Shown piece after piece: positions 7,994-21,113 of a stretch of DNA of 64,000 nucleotides. The position numbers and the translations under genes are program-made. The notes under the pieces are model-generated. The model made no database searches. It was given only the letters and a program-made list of their open reading frames with translations, and had not been told where the DNA came from. Source of the stretch: Deltaproteobacteria bacterium. GTDB taxonomy: Bacteria > Myxococcota_A > Polyangia > Haliangiales > SHYZ01. The DNA lies in NCBI GenBank assembly GCA_016210055.1, contig JACQUZ010000055.1:1-64000 (forward strand), read 5' to 3'. Position 1 is the stretch's first letter, and every line of letters begins with the position of its first letter.

Positions 7994-8075
7994 CACGTTC
8001 CCCCACGCCTACCCGCACGAATCATCCAGCCCTCAGCCTGCCGGCATGGGTCGTGCTACGCTTCCCGCCCGCGTC

Positions 8076-10238
8076 ATGAACATCCAGGCACTCTCAGCGC
8101 TCCTCGCGTCCGTGGTCACCTTGGCCATTGGCGCGTCCGTGGTGCTAAGGGATCGCAACCGCAAGACCTACGTCACCTTCGCCGCCTTCACCTTCACCGT
8201 CGCCCTGTACCACCTGTTCACGTTCCTTTCGGCGGCGACCACGAGCCCCTGGTATAGCTGGCTCGCCCTTTGGCCGGCCGCATTTGTCCCCACGACAGCA
8301 GTGCGCTTCTTTCGCGCCTTCCTCAACGAGCCCGCGATCGGGGCCAAGCGCAGGCGCCCGCAGCTTACATATTTCTGGACGGCCCTTTGGTGCGGCGCCA
8401 TCGCGTACGGCGCCGTCGTCAGGCCCATCCACCAGGAAGCCTGGTTTCTTTATCCGTTCGCCACGTATGTCTTTGGCGGCCTCTACCGCTGCGTCTGGGA
8501 TCTCTACGTCCAGTACCGCGCCACCGTCGCTGGGGTCGAAAAGGCACGCATCCGCTACCTCATGATCGGCGGCTTCGTGGCCACGACCCTCGCCGTCACC
8601 GATTTCCTGCCGCGCCTCGGGGTGACGTTCCCCACCATCGGCAACGTCCTCACGATCCTTTACCTGTACTTCCTCTCCCAGGCGCTGTTCCGCTACCGGC
8701 TCCTCGATCTCCACGAGCTCATGGGGAAGATGCTAGTCCTCGGCTCGCTGGTCGTGATCCTCTCGGTCGTGTACGGAATTCTCCTCTTGTGGGTTGGCGG
8801 CGGCAAGCAGCAGGGGCTGTTCATTCTGAACACGATCGTGGCGTCCTTCGTCATCCTCATCTTGTTCGAGCCGGTCAGGGCGATCCTCGAGAACGCGATA
8901 AGCCGCTGGCTCGTCCGCGAGCGGCACGAGCTGCGCTATCGCATGGATGGGCTGCGCCGTGAGCTCATGAACGTGATCGACACCAGGGACTTGGTGCGAA
9001 AGATCCTCTCGTCGCTCGAGGAGTCGCGTCGTGTGACGCACGCGGCGATCTACGTCATCGACGCCGAGGGGGCCGGCTTTGACCTCGCGGGATTCGTCGG
9101 ACCGAGACCGGTGGATCGCATCGACTTGGTCACGCGTCGCCCCTTTGTGGACCGCCTGCGCGGCGGGCCAGTGGCGCTCGAGGCTCTGGAGCGAGAGCTC
9201 GCCAACCTGGAGTCCCAGCGTGGGGGCGCTCCCGAAAAAGAGGTAGAGACTCTCGACGCCATCGCCCGTACCCTCGACGAGATGCACGCCTCCCTGGCGA
9301 TTCCCATATCGGGTGGCGGTGAAGGCACTGGCAACATCGAGATGGTCATTGGAGTGATTGGCCTCCGGGATGAACGGCTGCGCAACGCGTTTGGCGTCGA
9401 CGAGGTGGAGGTGTTCAAGCTTCTCGCCGCCCAGGCCGCCATCACGATGGAAAACTCCCAGGTCTTTGAGCGCATGAAAGAGCGCGATCGTCTTGCCGCT
9501 CTGGGAGAAATGGCCGCCGGTCTCGCCCACGAGATCCGGAACCCCCTAGGAGCCATCAAGGGGGCAGCGCAGTTGCTCGTGGGTCCCGATGGCCGGCCGG
9601 CCGCAGGCGCCGCCCAAGAAGTGGGCGAATTCCTTTCCATCATCGTGGACGAAGTGAACCGGCTGAACCGCGTCGTCTCCCAGTTTCTCGACTACGCCCG
9701 GCCGTACAAGGGGGAAGCCGCCGAGGTGGACATCAACGAGGTGGTGAAGAAGACCGTGCAACTCCTCGAGACACAGGAAGGCGCAACCGCGGTCGGCATT
9801 GACGTGCGGCTCAGTGAAGGGCTGCCCCGAATCCGCGGGGACGCCGAGCAGCTCCGTCAGGTGTTTCTAAACCTTGGGCTCAACGCGATCCAGGCCATGG
9901 CCGAAGGCGGGAGGCTTTCCATCAGCACCGGACGGCGCCCTGGACGCCGGAGGGGGGATCAAGGGACGTTCATCGAAGTGCGCTTTCGCGATACCGGCCC
10001 GGGCATTGCCAGGGAAAACCTCAAGAAGCTGTTCATCCCCTTCTTCACCACCAAGGAAAAAGGCACTGGGCTCGGGCTGCCCATCTCGCAGCGAATCATC
10101 ACGCACCATGGGGGTCGCATCGAGGTGCGCTCCGAAGTAGGGAAAGGCTCGACGTTTGCGGTGATCCTGCCACTCGCGGAAGAAACGAGCATCACCACAA
10201 CGGGCTCCATCGCACGCTCGAGCGTGGCGGGAACGTGA
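8076..10238 (+). CDS. Membrane sensor histidine kinase (7TM-type input, GAF, HisKA, HATPase)
   Basis: Multiple hydrophobic segments over residues 1-260 resemble the N-terminal 7TM region of some sensor kinases. A GAF-like domain follows at about 290-460, then HisKA with phospho-acceptor His485 in LAHEIRNP. The ATPase domain shows an N-box (LNLGLNAIQAM), DTGPGI and GTGLGLPIS. The ATG at 8046 would add ten polar residues; the ATG at 8076 puts the first helix at the usual place and was preferred, although neither start has a strong Shine-Dalgarno. A sigma-54 response regulator begins about 20 nt after the stop, so the two form a canonical two-component pair. The signal is unknown. Confidence 0.88.
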   Translation: MNIQALSALLASVVTLAIGASVVLRDRNRKTYVTFAAFTFTVALYHLFTFLSAATTSPWYSWLALWPAAFVPTTAVRFFRAFLNEPAIGAKRRRPQLTYFWTALWCGAIAYGAVVRPIHQEAWFLYPFATYVFGGLYRCVWDLYVQYRATVAGVEKARIRYLMIGGFVATTLAVTDFLPRLGVTFPTIGNVLTILYLYFLSQALFRYRLLDLHELMGKMLVLGSLVVILSVVYGILLLWVGGGKQQGLFILNTIVASFVILILFEPVRAILENAISRWLVRERHELRYRMDGLRRELMNVIDTRDLVRKILSSLEESRRVTHAAIYVIDAEGAGFDLAGFVGPRPVDRIDLVTRRPFVDRLRGGPVALEALERELANLESQRGGAPEKEVETLDAIARTLDEMHASLAIPISGGGEGTGNIEMVIGVIGLRDERLRNAFGVDEVEVFKLLAAQAAITMENSQVFERMKERDRLAALGEMAAGLAHEIRNPLGAIKGAAQLLVGPDGRPAAGAAQEVGEFLSIIVDEVNRLNRVVSQFLDYARPYKGEAAEVDINEVVKKTVQLLETQEGATAVGIDVRLSEGLPRIRGDAEQLRQVFLNLGLNAIQAMAEGGRLSISTGRRPGRRRGDQGTFIEVRFRDTGPGIARENLKKLFIPFFTTKEKGTGLGLPISQRIITHHGGRIEVRSEVGKGSTFAVILPLAEETSITTTGSIARSSVAGT

Positions 10239-10258
10239 TATAGGGAGGAATGGAAGGG

Positions 10259-11704
10259 ATGTCGGAGCCAGTGACAATCCTTGTCGCCGACGACGAGCCA
10301 AGCCTGCGGCGCGTGCTTTCCGCCATCCTGGCGCGCGAGGGATACGAGATCCTGCAAGCAGCCGATGGAGAAGAAGCCATCGAGCTCCTTCGTCGCGAGG
10401 AGTGGGGGGCGAGCGCCGTCATCACCGATCTCAAGATGCCGCGGCTCGATGGGATGGGGGTCCTGCGCCGGGTGGCGCTCGAAGCCCCCGACATCCCGGT
10501 CATCATCATCACGGCGCACGGCACGGTCGACAACGCCGTCGAGGCGGTCAAGGCCGGTGCCTTCGACTACATCGAGAAGCCGTTCGAGAAAGAGCTCATC
10601 CGCCAGGTCGTGGCCAAGGCGGTCAAGCAGTCCGAGGCACAACGCCACGCGCCTCGGCTTCCCCTCGCGCTCGGTGACACAAAGGCCCATGGCCGCTTTG
10701 GCCTCGTGGGCGACTCCCCAGGACTCAAGCAAATCTACGCCGTCATCGAGAAGGTCGCCGACACGCCGTCGACCGTGCTCATCACCGGCGAATCCGGCAC
10801 CGGCAAGGAGCTGGTCGCCAAGGCGCTCCACGAGCATAGCTCGCGGCGAAACTGCCCCTTCATCAAGATCAACTGCGCGGCCATCCCCAAGACGCTCATG
10901 GAGTCGGAGCTCTTCGGCTACGAAAAAGGAGCCTTCACCGGCGCCGTCGGCTCCAAGCCCGGACGGTTCGAGCTGGCCGACAAGGGGACGCTGTTCCTCG
11001 ACGAGATCGGTGAGATCCCGGTCGAAATGCAGGTGAAGCTCTTGCGCGCCTTGCAGGAGTCCGAGTTCGAGCGGGTGGGCGGCATTAAGACCATTAAGGT
11101 GGACGTTCGCCTGATTACCGCGACCAACCGTGACCTGGAAAAGGAAATCAAGGCGGGGAACTTCCGCGAGGATCTCTATTACCGACTCAACGTGGTGCCG
11201 CTGCACATCCCTCCGCTTCGTGATCGTCGCGAAGACATCCCGCTCCTTTGCGAGCACATCCTGCGCAAGTTCAACGAGCGACTGAAGAAGCAGGTCGACG
11301 GCATCGATCCCGAGGCGCTCGAGCGACTCATCAACCATTCATGGCCCGGGAACATCCGCGAGCTCGAGAACATCCTCGAGCGCACGCTCCTTTTCTGCGA
11401 CTCACCGCTGATCCGCGTGGGCGACCTCCCGCCGGAGATTGGCGTTGTCTTGTCGATTCCCGGCGCGCACCTCGCCACTGCATCGCCGTCGCTGCTCCCC
11501 GGAATGACCGCCACGGATCGCACGGGCCCGCAATCGCTCAAGGACATCGTCCGGGCAGAAACCGAGCGGGTGGAAAGAGAGCTCATCATGCGTGCCCTGG
11601 ATGAGACCAGCGGCAACGTGACCCAGGCCGCCAAGCTCCTCAAGATCAGCCGCAAGAGCTTGCAGATGAAGATGAAGGAGTTCGGCCTGCGCGAGCGGGA
11701 GTAG
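10259..11704 (+). CDS. NtrC-family sigma-54-dependent response regulator
   Basis: Receiver domain at residues 1-120 with phospho-acceptor Asp57 in VITDLKMP and the conserved Lys in EKPFEK. The central AAA+ domain has Walker A GESGTGKE, the sigma-54 contact loop GAFTGA and Walker [11 protein letters not shown]-terminal Fis-type helix-turn-helix contains [17 protein letters not shown]. It should be phosphorylated by the kinase encoded immediately upstream and open sigma-54 promoters. An in-frame ATG at 10250 is possible, but GGAGG would then touch the start codon, so 10259 was chosen. It ends 9 nt before the convergent sigma-54 activator gene. Confidence 0.92.
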
Positions 11705-11713
11705 AGCCCTCGC

Positions 11714-13339
11714 CTACCCCCGCCCGTACCCCCTAAGCTTCCGATACAGCGTCGCCTTGCCGATTCCGAGCAGCGCGGCGGTCTTCGCGTGATTGCCACC
11801 GCTTGCCTCCAGGGTGGCGAGGATATGTTGACGCTCCACCTCGGCGAGCGCTCGCCCTGGGGAAATAGCGCCCTGCATGCCGGCGGCCAGCCGTACCTCC
11901 TCGGGGAGATCGTGGACCTCCACCACGTGTCCCGTCGCGAGAACCACCGCGCGCTCCATGGCATTCGCGAGCTCCCGAACGTTCCCTGGCCATGGGTAGC
12001 GCGGGAGCTGGTCGGCGACCCCCGCCGAGATCCCCGTAACCTTGCGCCCGGTTCGCCTGGCCACGTCCGACAGGATCCACCGTGCGATGGGAAGGATGTC
12101 CTCCCTCCGCTCCCTCAGCGGTGGGACTTGCAGCTCCACCACCCGAAGGCGATACAGGAGATCGCTGCGAAAACGTCCCACCGCCAGCTCGTGCGACAGG
12201 TCCCGGTTCGTCGCCGCCAAGACCCTCACATCCACCGGGCGGCTCTTGTTCTCCCCCACACGGCGAACCTCTCGCTCCTGCAGCGCGCGAAGGAGCTTCA
12301 CCTGCATTGCCGGCGACAGCTCGGCGATCTCGTCGAGCAACAGGGTCCCTCCTGAAGCAGCCTCGAAGAGCCCCGGTCGATCGTGCGCCGCGCCCGTGAA
12401 GGCCCCTCGCGCATGGCCGAAGAGCTCGCTCTCGAGCAGGCTCTCGGCGACGGCGCCGCAGTTCAGCGCCACGAAGGGTCCTGCCGTGCGCCTCGACTCC
12501 TCGTGGATGAGCCGCGCGATCCGCTCCTTTCCCACGCCGCTTTCTCCGGTGATGAGCACGGTGGAGTCGACCTTGGCCACCCGCCTGGCCAGGTCCACGA
12601 CCCGCTTCATCGCCGCGCTCCGCGCCACGATCCCCGACGGTGCCTCGACTTGCCCCATCGCACGCACGAGCTCCCGCCTCCGGCGCATGAGTCGCCGCTC
12701 TGCCTTCTTGAGCTCGGCGGTGACCTTGGCGAGCGTCGCGTCCAAGGACTCCTTGCGACACTGTGGCGAGACGCCGACGACTTCTTCGCCCCACTCGTCC
12801 CTCGGGCGACCTACGAGGTGACAGGTCGCGTCCCCTCGCCCGCGGCAACGCACCTCCACGCAGAGGATCTCCCTGCCGTTGCAGTAGCTCAGGTAGCCGC
12901 TCGCGAACCCCGTCAGGCTCCAGCACGTGGGCTCCTGGGACAGGCCCAAGTGCAAGAGGTGCTGCTCGGCCTCATAGGATTCATGCCAGGCCGCTTCGGC
13001 GAAGGGCGGATTGCTCCCGGTCACCGGTCTCTCTGCCGGCTCGACGACCACGAGGCCCTGGAGCTCATGGAGCCTTCCGCCCGCAGTGCGCCACTCGCGC
13101 TCGCTGTCCCACGGGAACTCGTGCTTGAGCGCCTCGGCCGTGCGCCAGCCGTGCGCGTATCCGAACCGAAAAAGGACCCCACGAGCCGCGAGCGTCCCAA
13201 TGGTCTCGATCAGCTCCTTGCGGAGAATCCCCAGCGCCACCGCATCGAGGAGAAGCGCGCGCTGCCCGCCAAAACGGATGACCCCGCCTCGCGGGTTGAG
13301 AGAAAGAAGAGCCCCAAGGTCCAACTCGCTCGCTCGCAT
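11714..13339 (-). CDS. XylR/DmpR/MopR-class sigma-54 activator with V4R sensor domain
   Basis: 541 residues. The N-terminal 210 residues match the aromatic-effector domain of phenol/toluene regulators followed by a V4R module. Cys139, Glu162, Cys165 and Cys173 have exactly the spacing (23, 3, 8) of the structural zinc ligands of MopR (C155, E178, C181, C189, from memory). Trp118 falls where a phenol-pocket Trp is expected and His91 within one residue of the pocket His. The AAA+ domain has [14 protein letters not shown] and [10 protein letters not shown] Fis-type HTH ([19 protein letters not shown]) ends the protein. The gene diverges from yceI; a 12-bp inverted repeat begins 4 bp upstream of its start codon. 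It should respond directly to a small hydrophobic or phenolic ligand. Confidence 0.9.
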
Positions 13340-13493: not shown

Positions 13494-14024
13494 ATGGGCG
13501 AACCGTGGAAATTCGACCCCCAGCATTCCAGCATCCGTTTTTCAGTCCGCCACATGGTCATCGCCAAGGTGCATGGCACCTTCACGAAATGGTCAGGTGA
13601 CGTCGCCTTCACCCCCGAGGATCTGGGCCGCAGCAAGGTGACCGTCTCGATCGACGCGGCCAGCATCGACACCCAGGTCGCCGAGCGCGACCAGCACCTT
13701 CGCTCTCCCGACTTCCTCGACGTGGCCACCTATCCTCAGATCACGCTTGCGAGCAAGCGCGTGGAGAAGAGCGACGAGAATCGCTACCGCGTGGTTGGAG
13801 ACCTCACGATTCACGGGGTCACGCGCGAGGCGGTGCTCGTCGTCGAGCACGCGGGGCAGGCCAAGGATCCGTGGGGAAACGTGCGCGCTGGGTTCTCGGC
13901 GCGCACGACGATCGACCGCAAGGATTTTGGCCTGAAGTGGAACCAGGTGCTCGAGACGGGTGGCCTTCTCGTCGGGGACAAGGTAGAAATCACAGCAGAA
14001 ATTGAGCTCGTCAAAACCGCATGA
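13494..14024 (+). CDS. YceI-family lipocalin-like protein, no signal peptide
   Basis: 176 residues starting MGEPWKFDPQHSS with GAGGAG 7 nt upstream. It covers the whole YceI domain: an N-terminal strand with the D-x-x-H-S pattern, FSVRHMVIAKVHGTF, RDQHLRSPDFLDVATYP and the closing DFGLKWN region. YceI folds form an extended beta-barrel, and structures of homologues hold a polyisoprenoid chain. Many homologues are periplasmic, but this one lacks an export signal and should be cytosolic. It is the first gene behind the sigma-54 promoter and is followed by a lipoprotein paralogue after 14 nt. The long open frame upstream is antisense to the activator gene and was discarded. Confidence 0.93.
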   Translation: MGEPWKFDPQHSSIRFSVRHMVIAKVHGTFTKWSGDVAFTPEDLGRSKVTVSIDAASIDTQVAERDQHLRSPDFLDVATYPQITLASKRVEKSDENRYRVVGDLTIHGVTREAVLVVEHAGQAKDPWGNVRAGFSARTTIDRKDFGLKWNQVLETGGLLVGDKVEITAEIELVKTA

Positions 14025-14038
14025 GGGAGAACGCGACA

Positions 14039-14749
14039 ATGATTCGAACGGCGCGCAGAACCGGAACCCCAATTCTCCTGGGCATGTTCGTCCTTGCATC
14101 CCAGGGATGCGAGAACCCCGCGAAGGACAAGCCCAAGGCACAGGTAGGCGCTGCCGTCGAGCCAGCACCCCAGCCTGTAGCCCAGCCAGCGACAAAGCAG
14201 GCCCCGCCTGCCGCCGCGACGGAAACAATCCCGCTCGATCCGTCCAATTCCAAGATCGAGTTCGTAGCGGCCAAGGTGACGAAGAGCCACCCGGGTGGGT
14301 TCTCGCAGTTCAAGGGCTCCCTGGAGCTCGGAGCCTCCCCTGAGGCAGCCAAGATCTCCCTGTCGATCGACATGAGCTCGGTCTACGCCGACGCCGAAAA
14401 GCTCACCGCGCACCTCAAGACTCCAGACTTCTTCGACGTGGCGAAGTACCCAACGGCGCTTTTCGAGTCGACAGAAGTTCGGGCGGGAGGAGAGAAAGGC
14501 GCCACCCACACCATCGTCGGCAACCTGGATCTCCACGGCGTCAAGCGCTCGATCTCCTTCCCTGCGACCCTTCAGCTCGCAGACGGCCTGGTGAGCGCCG
14601 CCAGTGAATTTGTTCTAAACCGGAAAGACTTCGGCATTGTCTATCCTGGAATGCCCGACGACCTGATTCGCGACGAGGTGGTCCTAAAGCTCGCGATCAA
14701 GGCACCGCGCGGGCAAGCGGGAAGCGCGAAGCCAGTAGCCACGCCGTAA
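14039..14749 (+). CDS. YceI-family lipoprotein
   Basis: 236 residues from the ATG at 14039, which has GAGGGAGA 8 nt upstream; an ATG at 14021 overlapping the previous stop is less likely. The signal peptide ends LASQGC, a lipobox. A Pro/Ala/Lys-rich linker of about 45 residues then leads into a YceI domain (SNSKIEFVAAKVTKSHPGGF, HLKTPDFFDVAKYPTALFES, LNRKDFGIVYPG). It should be anchored to the envelope, with the lipocalin domain projecting on a flexible tether. Co-transcribed with the cytosolic paralogue. Confidence 0.92.
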   Translation: MIRTARRTGTPILLGMFVLASQGCENPAKDKPKAQVGAAVEPAPQPVAQPATKQAPPAAATETIPLDPSNSKIEFVAAKVTKSHPGGFSQFKGSLELGASPEAAKISLSIDMSSVYADAEKLTAHLKTPDFFDVAKYPTALFESTEVRAGGEKGATHTIVGNLDLHGVKRSISFPATLQLADGLVSAASEFVLNRKDFGIVYPGMPDDLIRDEVVLKLAIKAPRGQAGSAKPVATP

Positions 14750-14763
14750 TCGCGGCTTCTTCT

Positions 14764-15594
14764 CTACTTCACTACCTTGAGCGACGAAGCCTCGGCCGCA
14801 CGCGCGCGGCTCGCGTTGGAAAGGAGCCCATCGGTGTCAAGGCCAAGCTCGTCGACGACCAGCTCAACTCCCACGACGATGTCGTCGATCTCCGACGTGA
14901 GCTCTTCGTGCTTGCCCATGCCGATGATGTGCGACTCCAGGTACTTGAGCGATTTTTCCAGGGTCTCCATCTTCAACGAAAGCACCTTGAACGACGCCAT
15001 GAGGCGGGCGTGCTGCTTGGCACGCTTCTCGGCGAGCCCCAAGCTGTCGCGGATCGACGCCTTCACCTCGTTGTTCTTTTCGCGTGAGAGGTCCTTCTCG
15101 AGCCGGGCGATGTCCCGGAGGATCTCGTCCTCGTTGGTGTTCTCGAGGTACGTCCGCATCCTTTGGTGCAGCACAGCCATCTTCAAGAAGGAATGGAGCG
15201 CCTTGCCAAGCTTCTCCATCTCCTTGTCGACGAGGCCCGCCTCGAAGCTCGTGTTTCCGGCGGCGAGCTCGCGGATCCGCTCGGCCTGGCGGGCGATGCC
15301 CTGGAATCGCACCTGGTAGCGCGGGTCGAGGATCGCGAGCACGGCCGTGGCCTCTTCTTCGGCACGCTGCCGCTCCTCCTGGCTCTCCTGCTTGGCGGCC
15401 CACCGTCGGAAAAAAGGGGTGTCCGGCCCGAAGGTTAGCCAAAGCGCCTCGAGGCCCGCGCCGATGACGAGCGGCGTCCATGAGAAGGCCGCCAGCCCGA
15501 ACAGCCCCGTCGCGCCGAGGAGGATGTAGTTGTACTGGTTGGCGAACGCGCGACGAAACAGGCCTCTCTGCTTGCGTGGGGCTGGAGCGGGCAT
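14764..15594 (-). CDS. Membrane-anchored coiled-coil protein of unknown function
   Basis: 276 residues. A short basic N-terminus is followed by two adjacent hydrophobic stretches (about residues 20-50), then an almost entirely helical, charged region with heptad-like Leu/Ala spacing to the C-terminus. No enzymatic motif was found. The ATG at 15594 was preferred to a TTG at 15627. It diverges from the ABC importer operon across an 80-nt gap and mirrors the coiled-coil gene at the other end of that operon. The loose resemblance to XpaC-like membrane coiled-coil proteins is not firm enough for a name. Confidence 0.7.
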   Translation of the reverse strand: MPAPAPRKQRGLFRRAFANQYNYILLGATGLFGLAAFSWTPLVIGAGLEALWLTFGPDTPFFRRWAAKQESQEERQRAEEEATAVLAILDPRYQVRFQGIARQAERIRELAAGNTSFEAGLVDKEMEKLGKALHSFLKMAVLHQRMRTYLENTNEDEILRDIARLEKDLSREKNNEVKASIRDSLGLAEKRAKQHARLMASFKVLSLKMETLEKSLKYLESHIIGMGKHEELTSEIDDIVVGVELVVDELGLDTDGLLSNASRARAAEASSLKVVK

Positions 15595-15674
15595 TCGCAA
15601 CCCAAGGATATCACGAGGCTTGACCAACGAGAGGACGGTGGGCGAAGCTCTGTCGAAAAAAGGACCTAGACACC

Positions 15675-17450
15675 ATGGCGAAGCTCACTCCACTCGCGAA
15701 GGGGATAATCACCATTGTCGTTGTCAGTGCGGTCGGCACGGCCCTCTACGTAAACAAGGATAAGATCGCGCCAAAGGCCAAGCGGCAGGCATCAGTCGTG
15801 CCGCCCAAGGTCGAGCTGCCCGAGGCGCAGGATCCCAAGAACCCGGGTCCCATTCCCAGCGGCGATCTCCCGCCGCCCGGCTGCCCGGACAAGCCAGAGG
15901 TCCGCTTCCTTCATTGGGCCTGGAACGCCCAAATGGGCCTGATGCTCGCGACTGGCAACAAGCAAGCCGCCCAAGGCAGCCTGATGTGCAAGCACGGCGT
16001 GAACCTTGTGCTCACGCGAGAAGACATGGTCGACAACATGCAGGCGCAGCTCGTCGCCTTTGCCGAAGCCCTAAAGGCCGGAGAGAAGCACCCGAAGACG
16101 GGCGCGCATTTCGTCGCGATCATGGGTGACGGCTCAGCGGCGTTCCTCAAGGGGGTCAACGACCGGCTCAAGAAGCTCGGCCCGGACTACATCGCCGCGG
16201 TCGTGGGTTCCGCCGGCTACAGCCGCGGCGAAGACAAGTTCATGGGCCCGCCCGAGTGGAAGAAGAACCCGCAGGCAGCACGGGGTGGGGTCGTGGCCGG
16301 CGTGCTCCGTGACGGCGACTGGAACATCGCCCTGAAGTGGCTCGGGGACAATGGCATCGCCAACAATCCAGACGAGAAGACCTACGACCCCGACGCGCTC
16401 AACTGGATCGCCGCCTCGGACTACATCGACGCGGGCCAGAAGTACGTCTCGGGCTACTGCGAAGAGCGGAAGAACGTCAAGACGAGCAAGCCCGAGAAGG
16501 CCTGCGTCCAGGGCGTCGTGACGTGGACGCCCGGCGACGTCACCGTAGCCAAGGAGAAAGGCGGCCTCATCTCGATCGTCTCGACGAAGGAATACCGATC
16601 GCAGATGCCCAACGTGGTTATCGGCAACAAGAAGTGGATGGCCGAAAACCGCGCGCTGGTGAAGGGCATGCTGAGCGCGATTTTTGACGCCGGCGACGAG
16701 ATTAAGGCCAGCGACGAGGCGCTGAGGAAGGCCGCCGGCATCAGCGCGGTCGTCTACAAGGAGAAGGACGGGGCGTACTGGTACAAGTACTTCACGGTCC
16801 AGACCGAAAAGGACAAGCAGGGCCTCATGGTCGAGCTCGGCGGGTCCTCGGTAAACAACCTTGCCGACAACCTCCAGCTGTTCGGACTCGCCGAGGGCTC
16901 TACAAGCCTGTTCGCCGCCACGTACACGGTCTTCGGCAACGTGGTGAAGCAGCAGTACCCCGAGTACGTGCCCGACTTCTATCCCGTCGCGCAGATCCTC
17001 GACTCGTCGTACGTCAAGGAGCTCGCAGGCGTAGGCGCCTTCGGGACGCAGGCCGACCTGCCCAAGTTCGAGCCGGCCGCCCGGGTCCAGGAGGTCGTGT
17101 CGCGCAAGGCCTGGTCCATCGAGTTCGAGAGCGGCAAGGCCGCCTTCACCAGGAAGGCTGAGGCGGTCCTCGAGCAGCTGCTCGCCGACCTCGTCATCGC
17201 GGGCGGCACGCTGGTCGAGATCCACGGCCACACCGACAGCGTCGGTGGCATGGAGAAGAACCAGGCCTTGTCCGAGGAGCGTGCCTTCGTGGTGAAGAAA
17301 TGGCTCGAGGGGAAATCGCCCGTGAACTTCCCGCAGGGCCGCGTCAAGGTGTTCGCTCACGGCCAGGAGCAGCCCCTCGAGTCGAATAACACCTCCGCCG
17401 GGCGCGCCAAGAACCGCCGGGTCGAAATCGTCATGGGGACATCGGGCTGA
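15675..17450 (+). CDS. ABC-type solute receptor fused to OmpA peptidoglycan-binding domain
   Basis: 591 residues. One N-terminal transmembrane helix (about 9-28) anchors the protein in the inner membrane. After a Pro-rich linker, residues about 70-460 look like a periplasmic ligand-binding protein of the NMT1/phosphate-binding type. Residues about 470-590 form an OmpA-like domain with the signature HGHTDSVGGMEKNQALSEERA, which binds peptidoglycan diaminopimelate. The stop overlaps the permease start (TGATG). The receptor would be held to both membrane and wall while feeding the permease, an unusual architecture for an importer. The substrate cannot be predicted. Confidence 0.85.
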   Translation: MAKLTPLAKGIITIVVVSAVGTALYVNKDKIAPKAKRQASVVPPKVELPEAQDPKNPGPIPSGDLPPPGCPDKPEVRFLHWAWNAQMGLMLATGNKQAAQGSLMCKHGVNLVLTREDMVDNMQAQLVAFAEALKAGEKHPKTGAHFVAIMGDGSAAFLKGVNDRLKKLGPDYIAAVVGSAGYSRGEDKFMGPPEWKKNPQAARGGVVAGVLRDGDWNIALKWLGDNGIANNPDEKTYDPDALNWIAASDYIDAGQKYVSGYCEERKNVKTSKPEKACVQGVVTWTPGDVTVAKEKGGLISIVSTKEYRSQMPNVVIGNKKWMAENRALVKGMLSAIFDAGDEIKASDEALRKAAGISAVVYKEKDGAYWYKYFTVQTEKDKQGLMVELGGSSVNNLADNLQLFGLAEGSTSLFAATYTVFGNVVKQQYPEYVPDFYPVAQILDSSYVKELAGVGAFGTQADLPKFEPAARVQEVVSRKAWSIEFESGKAAFTRKAEAVLEQLLADLVIAGGTLVEIHGHTDSVGGMEKNQALSEERAFVVKKWLEGKSPVNFPQGRVKVFAHGQEQPLESNNTSAGRAKNRRVEIVMGTSG

Positions 17451-18241
17451 TGAGAGCTCGCCTCGCTCGCGCCCTGTTCCCGAACCGCGCGATCGATGGC
17501 GTGACCTCCCTCGCCCTGGTCGGGTTCTGGATCGTCACGCTGCTCGCGGTGTGGACGCTCTCGCCCTGGGAGACAATCCCGAAACCGGGCGAAGTCCTCG
17601 GGGCGATCTCTCGCATGTGGTGGGAGCACGGCATGGGGCCGGAGCTCTTCACCACGATGACGCTCATCCTCCACGCACTCCTTTTCACAGTCGTAATTTC
17701 GATGCTCCTATCCTACGCGACGGTGATCGCAGCGTTTCGGCCTCTTGTCGCCGCGGTGTCCAAGCTGCGCTTCCTCGGCCTCACGGGGCTCGTGCTGCCG
17801 TTCACGTTGCTCACTGGCGGCGGCTACGCTCTGAAGGTCTGGCTTCTGACTTTCGGAATGACGACCTTCTTCGTGACGGCGATGGCGGCCGAGGTGATGG
17901 CGATCCCACGCGAGAGCTTCGACCACCTGCGGGTCTTGGGAGCGAGTGAAAGGCGGATCTTCTGGGAAGTCGTCATCCGGGGCACGCTCGACAAAGCGCT
18001 CGAGATCCTGCGCCAGAACCTCGCGATCGGCTGGGCGATGATCACGATGGTCGAGGGCATCTCGCGCGCCGAGGGCGGGATCGGCGCGATGATCCTCAAC
18101 GAGAACAAGCACTTCAAGTTGGCGGAGGTCTACGGGATCCTGCTCGTGATCCTGGCCCTCGGCCTGCTCCTCGACTACGTGATGGGCGTCCTCACTCGGG
18201 TCGCCTGCCCACACCTTGAGCTGGAACGGGTGAGACGCTGA
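17450..18241 (+). CDS. ABC transporter permease (TauC/SsuC-like)
   Basis: 263 residues with about six hydrophobic helices and the binding-protein-dependent inner-membrane component signature around residues 160-185 (EVMAIPRESFDHLRVLGASERRIF), including the EAA-type loop that docks to the ATPase. Start and stop overlap those of both neighbours by one base (TGATG at each junction), implying translational coupling and a 1:1:1 complex. Similarity is to nitrate/taurine/thiamine-precursor permeases, but the ligand is unknown. Confidence 0.9.
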   Translation: MRARLARALFPNRAIDGVTSLALVGFWIVTLLAVWTLSPWETIPKPGEVLGAISRMWWEHGMGPELFTTMTLILHALLFTVVISMLLSYATVIAAFRPLVAAVSKLRFLGLTGLVLPFTLLTGGGYALKVWLLTFGMTTFFVTAMAAEVMAIPRESFDHLRVLGASERRIFWEVVIRGTLDKALEILRQNLAIGWAMITMVEGISRAEGGIGAMILNENKHFKLAEVYGILLVILALGLLLDYVMGVLTRVACPHLELERVRR

Positions 18242-19050
18242 TGGCTGCCGGTGACCTCCTCCTCGACGTGAAGGACGTCTCCCAGAAGCTCGGGGGAAGC
18301 CAGATCCTCGAAGGAGTGACGTTCCAAGTGAAGGATCGCGTGCGGCCCGACAAGGTGACGGGGCAGATCGCCGGCCTGCTCGGACCGTCTGGCGTGGGCA
18401 AGACGCGGCTCATCCGCATCGTCGCCGGGCTGGACGTTCCCGACGCGGGGTCGGTCACGCGTGGCGATGGCGCACCAATTGCGGCCGGCGAGGTCGGGGT
18501 GGTGTTCCAGCACTATCCCCTCCTCAAGCACCGCACGATTCGCTCGAACCTGGATGTGGCCGCGTCGATCGGGGGCACGACGGGCGAGCGCGCGACGAGT
18601 CGGATCGACATGCTCCTAGAGCGCTTTGGGCTCGCGCACCGCCAGAACCTCTATCCCATGCAGCTCTCGGGGGGCCAGCGGCAGCGGGCGGCAATCGCCC
18701 AGCAGATCGTCTGTCACAAGAAGCTCCTGCTCCTCGACGAGCCGTTCTCCGGCCTCGATCCAGCCGCATTGGACGAGTGCATCAAGCTCCTCGTGGAGGT
18801 CGCGCACATCGACGAGGAGACGACGCTCGTCATCGTCACTCACGACATCAAGGCCGCCATGAAGGTCTCGGACGCGCTCTTCATGCTGGGGCGCGACCGC
18901 GACGCGTCGGGCAAGGTCACGAGCGGCGCGAAGGTCCAAAAGACGTACGATCTCGTCGAGCTGGGTCTCGCCTACCGTGAGGACGTGGAGTTCGATCCGG
19001 CGTTCACGGCCCTGGAGCGGGAAATCAAGGCCGAGTTCAAGCGGCTCTGA
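18241..19050 (+). CDS. ABC transporter ATP-binding protein (TauB/SsuB-like)
   Basis: 269 residues with a full nucleotide-binding domain: Walker A GPSGVGKT, Q-loop in VVFQHYP, signature LSGGQRQR, Walker B LLLLDEPFSGLD and switch His in VIVTHD. A short insertion (KDRVRPDKVTGQ) precedes Walker A. It completes the importer begun by the OmpA-fused receptor. Translation is coupled to the permease gene by TGATG. It ends 20 nt before the convergent coiled-coil gene. Confidence 0.94.
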   Translation: MAAGDLLLDVKDVSQKLGGSQILEGVTFQVKDRVRPDKVTGQIAGLLGPSGVGKTRLIRIVAGLDVPDAGSVTRGDGAPIAAGEVGVVFQHYPLLKHRTIRSNLDVAASIGGTTGERATSRIDMLLERFGLAHRQNLYPMQLSGGQRQRAAIAQQIVCHKKLLLLDEPFSGLDPAALDECIKLLVEVAHIDEETTLVIVTHDIKAAMKVSDALFMLGRDRDASGKVTSGAKVQKTYDLVELGLAYREDVEFDPAFTALEREIKAEFKRL

Positions 19051-19070
19051 ACGAGCTGCCGGGAACAGCT

Positions 19071-19697
19071 TTACTTCTTAGGCGCCTTCGCCGGCGGCGG
19101 TGGGGGAGCGGCCTCGAGCTTGTCCATCACGCCGAAGAAGACGCGTGCGCCCTGCAAGCGACCCTCCTCCACCGCGCACTGGCCGCGCACGTCCTCGAGC
19201 TCCTTCTTGAGGCGCTCCATGGCGACCTTGTGCTCCTCGGCCTTCCGGAGGAGCTCATCGATAGCCGCCTGATGCTCGGAGACCTGGGCTCCGACCCACT
19301 CGGTCTTGGCTTGCTCGACCGCCCGGACCACCTTGATCTTGGAGGCCGCATCGCGAAGGACGTCGTTCGGCGACTTGCCGATCGCCGACAGGAACGCCTT
19401 GGCCGCGGCGAGCTTGGAAGCCTGCGGGAGGCTGTCTTCGATCCCGCCGAGGAACCGCTCGAGGGCCTCGACCTCGTCGGTATTCGGGATCCCCGCTTCA
19501 TCGTAAAGGGGTTGGAAATCGATGGCACCACCCTTGCCCAGCGAATCGCCGCTGGCACCCGGAGGCAGGTCACCGATCTCTCCCGCCGGGAGCTCCATCA
19601 TCATGAGCTCTGCCTCGTCCACCTGGGGCACTCGCGTGCCCGGCGCTTCGTCCTCTGACTCGACGAACAGCGACTTCACCTTTTTCCAACGCGACAT
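19071..19697 (-). CDS. Soluble coiled-coil protein next to ABC importer
   Basis: 208 residues starting MSRWKKVKSLFVESEDE; an earlier start at 19733 would add twelve unlikely residues. The acidic N-terminal third is low complexity, the middle is helical, and residues about 125-185 form a clear coiled coil (EHQAAIDELLRKAEEHKVAMERLKKELEDV). The tail is PPPPPAKAPKK. No signal peptide or membrane segment, so it should be cytosolic. It ends 20 nt from the ABC ATPase gene and faces it. Its membrane-anchored coiled-coil counterpart sits at the other end of the operon. Function unknown. Confidence 0.7.
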   Translation of the reverse strand: MSRWKKVKSLFVESEDEAPGTRVPQVDEAELMMMELPAGEIGDLPPGASGDSLGKGGAIDFQPLYDEAGIPNTDEVEALERFLGGIEDSLPQASKLAAAKAFLSAIGKSPNDVLRDAASKIKVVRAVEQAKTEWVGAQVSEHQAAIDELLRKAEEHKVAMERLKKELEDVRGQCAVEEGRLQGARVFFGVMDKLEAAPPPPPAKAPKK

Positions 19698-19778: not shown

Positions 19779-21113
19779 GTGTCGCGCGCAGTGCTCGCCA
19801 TCCTTACGTCAGCCACCCTGGTGCTCGGTGGTTCCGTCGACTCGGCGCGGGCCGCCGAGGTGACCGAAATCGCCAGCAGCTTCGACGAGGACGACCCCTT
19901 CGATCTCCACCTTGGCGTTGATTACAATTTCGAGGCCCGCCGCGTCGCCCTCATGCGCGAGCAGGTCGGGGTGCCACTTCCCAAGGAGGGCTTTCTCCCC
20001 CTCGCCAAGGATCTCATCTTCAAGCAGCGGCGCCACGTGGTGACACCTCGCGTCGCGGTCGGCCTTTTCCACGACGTCCAGCTTTCACTCGCCGTACCAA
20101 TCGTCTTGACCGACTCTCGCGAGCTCGCCTTTGACCAGGGGATCACGCGCGACAACTCATCCACCATCGCGTCCGGGCTGCTCCCCAAGGAGGGGTACGA
20201 CGCCGACGCGCCGACGACCAATTTCCCCGCCGACCCGCAGCTTATTTTTCGCGGCGTGGACAGGAGTGGAGTAGACCAGCTCCGCCTGGGCTTGACGGTT
20301 GGCCTGCTCAACCAGGCACGAGACGACACCAAGCCCACTTGGGTGCTCGGCGCCGAGCTTCGGCTCTCCATCGGCGAAGTCATGCGGTTCTCGCGCGAGA
20401 CCCCCACGTCGGAGACGGGAGTCTCCCTTGGCGTGCACGAGCTGCGCGTGTTCACTGGCCTATCCAAGCGCACGACGTGGGCCGAGCCCTTCGTCTATTT
20501 CTACTGGCAAGGACCATTGGCGACCCGCGGAGACAATCCCAACGATCCCGACGGCTCGCTCTTCTGGAACTTGAAGTTTGGGCAGGAAAACAAGACCCCC
20601 CAGCACCAGGCAGGCGCCACCTTCGGGTTCGAGGCCATTCCGTGGGAGGACAAGCGCCTTGGGCAAAAGATCGCCCTCGAATTCCGAGGACGTCTCGATG
20701 CGCGCTTCCAGGGGATGGGCTATCCCGAGATCTGGGAAGTCCTGGCCTACGCCGGGGAAAGTGGAGCGCTCGCGCTCGACGCCGACCCCACGCAAGAGTC
20801 CGTCCAAGCCTTGGCCCATCCCGGCGTCACCGTCATCGAGAACTACATGACCTTTGGCGGCCGCTTGGGTTTTCGAGGGCACCTCGGCGAGAACGCGCTC
20901 ATCGCCGGCGCGTTCGAGATTGCCCACGACACCGAGCATCGCCTCACCTTCAGCGACGCTGGGACCGATCGCGACAACGACGAAGAGGTCGATCCGGGAA
21001 CCAACGAGGTCAACCCGCTCCACAGGCCCATCATTGACCTGCCCGGGCACCGATTCGTGTCCGCTGATTCGACGATCTACACGTTCCTGGTGACCGGCCA
21101 GATCATGTTCTAG
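19779..21113 (+). CDS. Predicted outer-membrane beta-barrel protein
   Basis: The GTG at 19779 gives a clean signal peptide (VSRAVLAILTSATLVLGG... ending SARA) and a 444-residue protein; the upstream extension to 19701 is unlikely. The mature protein has alternating hydrophobic/polar strands and many aromatic girdle residues, and ends FLVTGQIMF with a terminal Phe, as is typical of BAM substrates. A calcium-loop-like acidic segment (DAGTDRDNDEEVDPG) lies near residue 405. No transport family was recognised. Its stop region overlaps the rsmI stop by 4 nt (convergent). Confidence 0.72.
   Translation: MSRAVLAILTSATLVLGGSVDSARAAEVTEIASSFDEDDPFDLHLGVDYNFEARRVALMREQVGVPLPKEGFLPLAKDLIFKQRRHVVTPRVAVGLFHDVQLSLAVPIVLTDSRELAFDQGITRDNSSTIASGLLPKEGYDADAPTTNFPADPQLIFRGVDRSGVDQLRLGLTVGLLNQARDDTKPTWVLGAELRLSIGEVMRFSRETPTSETGVSLGVHELRVFTGLSKRTTWAEPFVYFYWQGPLATRGDNPNDPDGSLFWNLKFGQENKTPQHQAGATFGFEAIPWEDKRLGQKIALEFRGRLDARFQGMGYPEIWEVLAYAGESGALALDADPTQESVQALAHPGVTVIENYMTFGGRLGFRGHLGENALIAGAFEIAHDTEHRLTFSDAGTDRDNDEEVDPGTNEVNPLHRPIIDLPGHRFVSADSTIYTFLVTGQIMF

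Follow-up and report, generated by a model that had tools for sequence, protein, structure and literature searches.

Our analysis of a 64,000-nucleotide stretch of the genome of a Deltaproteobacteria bacterium (contig JACQUZ010000055.1 of assembly GCA_016210055.1; hereafter, the window) identified a gene cluster that we read, with a probability of roughly 0.55, as the transporter half of a PspA-linked envelope module, in which an importer with a wall-tethered receptor would aid membrane maintenance. The cluster is a split variant of a system that has already been reported, though briefly, namely the PspA/Snf7–AAA+–ABC–PBPB/OmpA operons (Ravi et al., 2024; PMC11237479). According to the passages of that paper dealing with these operons, they share with the window an ABC permease, an ATPase and a receptor that combines a solute-binding domain with an OmpA domain and that in the window also adjoins the permease and ATPase genes. 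The published operons include, in addition, either PspA or a transmembrane Snf7 homologue and a protein with two AAA+ domains, of which the N-terminal copy is inactive, and some Bacteroidetes neighborhoods contain a third coiled-coil gene; the window, by contrast, lacks PspA and AAA+, which lie on a different contig of its genome. The same passages contain no mention of a near-universal cytosolic partner (CC2), of two mutually exclusive families of membrane-anchored partners (TMCC-A and TMCC-B), of TerB or of phage copies, and among open-licence PMC papers we found no report of such a cytosolic partner, of the partner swap or of the phage copies.

The receptor, permease and ATPase genes are coupled through TGATG overlaps (GGGCTGATGAGAG and GACGCTGATGGCT, respectively), as the initial annotation of this DNA had proposed (Table 1). 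Its description of the receptor, as having a membrane helix at the N-terminus and an OmpA domain at the C-terminus, was likewise confirmed by the presence of a hydrophobic helix and by the profile match detailed below. Two genes encoding helical proteins flank the operon, and these had been described as pointing inward, one encoding a membrane-anchored and the other a cytosolic protein. The predicted locations agree with our analysis, since the left protein has a transmembrane hairpin and the right one has no evident transmembrane region; regarding orientation, the right gene does face the operon, but the left one is divergent and faces away from it. In relatives the orientation of the flanking genes is variable and often co-directional. 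The likely start of the left gene is the ATG at 15594, as the TTG at 15627 would give a protein longer than its homologues suggest. Neither flanking protein (TMCC-A or CC2) matched a Pfam or NCBIfam family above the cut-off.

Table 1. Importer cluster of the window: genes and the wall-binding domain of the receptor.
Feature	Position	Strand	Description
TMCC-A	14764..15594	-	Helical protein anchored in the membrane, with a TM hairpin preceding long helices; faces away from the operon
Receptor	15675..17450	+	N-terminal TM helix, NitT/TauT-type substrate-binding domain, C-terminal OmpA domain
OmpA-like peptidoglycan-binding domain of receptor	17124..17417	+	aa 484-581, PF00691
ABC permease, NtrB/TauC type	17450..18241	+	PF00528, E 6e-6
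ABC ATPase	18241..19050	+	PF00005, E 4e-26; Walker A, signature, Walker B and H-loop intact
CC2	19071..19697	-	Cytosolic: short basic N-terminus, linker, helical domain, coiled coil

Several other genes surround the cluster. Two tandem YceI-domain proteins (PF04264) are encoded directly to its left (13560-14749, + strand), although their conservation with the cluster is not systematic. Further upstream (8046-13339) lie genes for a histidine kinase and an NtrC-type regulator, together with a convergent gene for a sigma-54 activator whose sequence looks V4R-like to us; it is possible that these genes have a regulatory link to the cluster. On the other side, positions 19779-21110 (+ strand) encode an outer-membrane-type protein without a Pfam match, a homologue of which (35% identity) is found near a receptor/OmpA-like gene in one relative (G017, locus L020). 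None of these neighbors (the outer-membrane protein, the YceI pair and the NtrC genes) is systematically linked to the module in relatives.

The OmpA domain of the receptor scores above the Pfam cut-off (E 3e-16), and all 47 homologues compared share two of its residues, D521 and R536. By analogy with Acinetobacter OmpA, these are the residues expected to bind diaminopimelate (DAP); the domain has both the profile match and the Asp/Arg pair of wall-binding OmpA domains. Although no PDB relatives of the ligand domain were detected at the sequence level, fold comparison was informative. The AlphaFold model of this domain is confident (pLDDT 92; 35 homologues), and Foldseek matched it to TauA (E 3e-10), NrtA (E 6e-10) and CmpA (TM-score 0.61), as well as to SsuA and ThiY/Thi5, sulfonate and thiamine-type receptors, which places it within the NMT1/NrtA/TauA-type receptor fold. 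Among 35 sequences, 36 positions of the ligand domain are invariant. A second receptor subtype found in relatives is clearly NMT1-type (PF09084), and it is homologous to the window receptor over 315 columns (hhalign probability 99, E 6.5e-18). Taken together, sequence and structure models predict a receptor with two anchors, the N-terminal helix holding it in the inner membrane and the OmpA domain holding it to the peptidoglycan.

The permease matches its Pfam family at the cut-off of that family and shows weak similarity to the NCBIfam SaoP, NtrB and TauC models, while a motif scan found complete ATPase motifs in 100 of the 105 loci examined, including 25 of 26 viral ones. The cluster therefore has the functional ATPase motifs and the BPD_transp_1 permease of a NitT/TauT importer and, since the anchors, the fold and the ATPase motifs are intact, the receptor, permease and ATPase look functional. 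It shares the receptor fold and the permease and ATPase types with NitT/TauT-type ABC importers (NrtABCD, CmpABCD, TauABC, and SsuABC), but differs from them in the transmembrane anchor and OmpA wall-binding domain of its receptor and in the helical partner genes alongside. The combination of a transmembrane helix with an OmpA-type peptidoglycan-binding domain is, in turn, common to MotB and other OmpA-domain anchors, and the PDB sequence matches of the receptor were MotB, PomB and MotS. Unlike MotB, however, the window receptor has a full solute-binding domain between its membrane and wall anchors, and its membrane partner is an ABC importer rather than a stator.

To determine how widely the receptor occurs, a profile of five receptors was searched against genomes, yielding 188 candidate bacterial relatives. 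The best 79 of these loci, which were kept, belong to Myxococcota, Acidobacteriota, Armatimonadota, Bacteroidota and one Kerfeldbacteria bin, and the profile search identified another 29 viral loci with the receptor. Among 56 close relatives of the window's genome, just 6 possess it, so its distribution is patchy. Cultured hosts with the module include Minicystis rosea (L031), Emticicia sp. C21 (L088), Fibrella aquatilis (L083) and Xanthocytophaga flavus (L077). With our first iterated profiles, counting one match per locus, the membrane partner was present in 76 of 113 loci and CC2 in 63 of 113, with all five families in 47 of 113. Because the first seeds had mixed bacterial and phage proteins, these profiles were replaced by single-seed repeat searches for the coiled-coil partners. 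In the refined census, TMCC-A or TMCC-B lies within 5 kb of the receptor in 41 of the 52 bacterial loci with full flanks, and CC2 is present as well in 37; for the 23 viral loci with full flanks the corresponding counts are 23 and 22, and 21 of them have TMCC-B plus CC2. Thus, the flanking coiled-coil genes are present at most of the full-flank loci with an OmpA-fused receptor; their absence from most such loci, which would have refuted the initial suggestion of a conserved module, was not observed.

The partners are also linked to the receptor in trans. CC2 is encoded in all 14 receptor genomes searched, 13 of which had no CC2 detected at the receptor locus, and in nine of nine tested Bacteroidota without local partners CC2 and TMCC-B lie directly side by side elsewhere in the genome. 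Within a phylum sample of 285 genomes, TMCC-A is found in 8/8 receptor genomes against 28/277 others (p 3e-8) and CC2 in 5/8 against 10/277 (p 1e-5), these being Fisher tests that ignore shared ancestry; CC2 was not detected in the remaining three receptor genomes of this sample. Co-occurrence thus places CC2 and the TM-hairpin helical protein in the system of the importer. The notion that the coiled-coil genes are chance neighbors, adjoining the importer without any functional link, could appeal to the mixed orientation in the window and to the lack of conservation of the flanking genes beyond the module. It is refuted by an association that is conserved in at least four bacterial phyla and in phages and that extends to links in trans, and we regard it as highly improbable.

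Analysis of the membrane-anchored partners revealed two families sharing one slot. TMCC-A, recovered from the window seed, comprises 52 loci including the window, whose own protein is predicted to be all helical (AlphaFold pLDDT 90) with an N-terminal TM hairpin; a longer iteration of this search was discarded, as it drifted into antisense frames. TMCC-B comprises 38 loci, which correspond to most phages and some Bacteroidota and Acidobacteriota. The two never occur in the same locus. A mixed seed had suggested a single family, but separate seeds showed no detectable similarity between them (hhalign probability of 3% or less), and we therefore treat them as two families. In contrast, CC2 is one family across bacteria and phages, as independent seeds converge on it (hhalign probability 98, E 3e-13); the window's member carries a C-terminal coiled coil.

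TMCC-A occupies the place of the transmembrane Snf7 protein, although it matched neither Snf7, ESCRT-III nor PspA by sequence or fold. Its comparison with PDB folds gave no significant match, and none to PspA or ESCRT-III proteins; an ESCRT-III fold was discarded, since the best matches were only BAR domains and designed bundles (E 0.05). For TMCC-B, matches to PspA_IM30 stayed below the threshold (E 2e-4 to 5e-2) and a profile alignment with PspA was co-linear but weak, and a PspA-like nature of this family is a lead and not a result. XpaC/TelA, considered as a candidate identity for the coiled-coil genes, was rejected, as neither TMCC nor CC2 proteins matched the Pfam XpaC or TelA families. 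In Xanthocytophaga flavus (L077:5835-6866, + strand), a TM-anchored Ppx/GppA-like protein of the ASKHA fold (PF02541, E 9e-7) is encoded between TMCC-B and the receptor.

In many relatives, co-occurrence assigns PspA, a double-AAA+ protein and TerB to the same system. Some of them, carrying the second receptor subtype, have a row of eight genes (CC2, PspA, receptor, permease, ATPase, TMCC-A, double-AAA+ and TerB) in which CC2 and TMCC-A bracket PspA and the importer genes, and PspA, located between CC2 and the receptor, matches PF04012 (E 9e-19). Across the loci scanned, PspA was found in 20 ORFs and AAA+ in 19, and at loci from Acidobacteriota and Armatimonadota the window-type receptor, too, has a PspA gene close by. 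The cluster of the window has no PspA; module-type PspA, AAA+ and TerB genes are found only in trans, consecutively on contig C67 of the same genome (L192:7341-10438), a link that rests partly on binning, as this is a draft genome with an estimated contamination of 5.85%. The AAA+ homologue on this contig has about 600 amino acids, and in a relative of it (L182) PF00004 matches the C-terminal half only, which is consistent with an inactive N-terminal half. Another genome (G036) is split differently, with receptor, permease and ATPase on one contig and CC2, PspA, TMCC, AAA+ and TerB on another. Since related genomes break the module at different points, we argue that the parts form one system. 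It should be noted that the AAA+ family, present in 77 of the 285 genomes of the phylum sample, is much more widespread than the receptor, and that it is absent from all but one of the tested type-B genomes and from five phages, so it is not a universal part.

Based on these observations, we propose that the complex, with its doubly anchored receptor, would fix the importer at membrane-wall contact sites, where TMCC and CC2 would join it, on the cytoplasmic side, to an ESCRT-III-like coat of PspA that the AAA+ protein would remodel. Such a module could preserve the integrity of the inner membrane when the envelope is stressed and import a small solute at the same time. In phages without PspA and AAA+, the weakly PspA-like TMCC-B may replace the coat, and the module may help to preserve the host envelope through long infections.

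Two other explanations deserve consideration. The cluster might be an ordinary NitT/TauT nutrient importer whose double anchor merely keeps the receptor near the permease. Its importer parts are indeed complete and intact, the folds that it matches are those of receptors binding nitrate, bicarbonate, taurine, sulfonates and thiamine, and many loci, including the window, have no PspA nearby. What speaks against it is that PspA, AAA+ and TerB recur as neighbors, that huge phages carry the module and that two receptor subtypes, though divergent, have the same set of partners, which suggests that the system is defined by its partners and not by the ligand. On balance we consider this account unlikely, and its corollary that CC2 and TMCC are assembly or localization factors with no role in envelope stress is similarly doubtful.

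Alternatively, the wall-tethered receptor might act as a sensor that reports the distance to the wall or a wall-derived ligand, the ABC unit relaying the signal through an ATP-driven conformational change to the helical partners in the cytoplasm, a logic comparable to that of FtsEX or BceAB. The double anchoring of the receptor, the cytoplasmic side of the partners and the PspA link would all fit such a device. The ligand domain, however, is highly conserved and retains a complete solute-receptor fold, and no dedicated regulator was noticed as a conserved neighbor in an inspection that was not systematic; we thus find a sensor decidedly improbable.

The reading of the cluster as the transporter half of a PspA-linked module also bears on the initial suggestion of a conserved envelope-stress or wall-sensing module built from importer parts. 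Its conservation is supported by the census, and envelope stress by the recurrent PspA and AAA+ genes and the published operons (Ravi et al., 2024). As for wall sensing, the intact ATPase motifs fit a working importer as well as a sensor, and metal stress found no specific support.

In all domains of life, membranes are protected by proteins of the PspA/ESCRT-III type, but little is known of what these are coupled to in bacteria. A wall-tethered importer that stays with PspA-type proteins across phyla provides a defined, genetically separable complex, with which one may ask whether there is a mechanical link between membrane remodeling, wall contact and solute uptake, while the phage copies lead one to ask if phages control the integrity of the host envelope. 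Tentatively, the cluster might even represent a machine, borne by bacteria and phages, in which wall-anchored import of a solute is coupled to membrane remodeling of the ESCRT-III kind and which huge phages would deploy during infection to keep the host envelope intact; its core would comprise the wall-tethered ABC importer, CC2 and either of two TM helical coat proteins that can replace each other. We consider this wider proposal, core included, a speculative one.

Finally, regarding the phage copies, the 462-kb huge phage LR756500.1 has all five genes of the module (CC2, TMCC-B, receptor, permease and ATPase), which follow one another in the same direction. A large-terminase match was obtained for 7 of the 12 viral records tested, including LR756500.1 and records of 206 to 363 kb, indicating that these are phage genomes. 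Searches of plasmid and phage proteins with the full receptor returned mostly matches to the OmpA domain only, and only LR756500.1 matched over 87%. The OmpA domain of the receptor and the permease also matched PHROG families 7897, 25518 and 6743, which are labeled as of unknown function.
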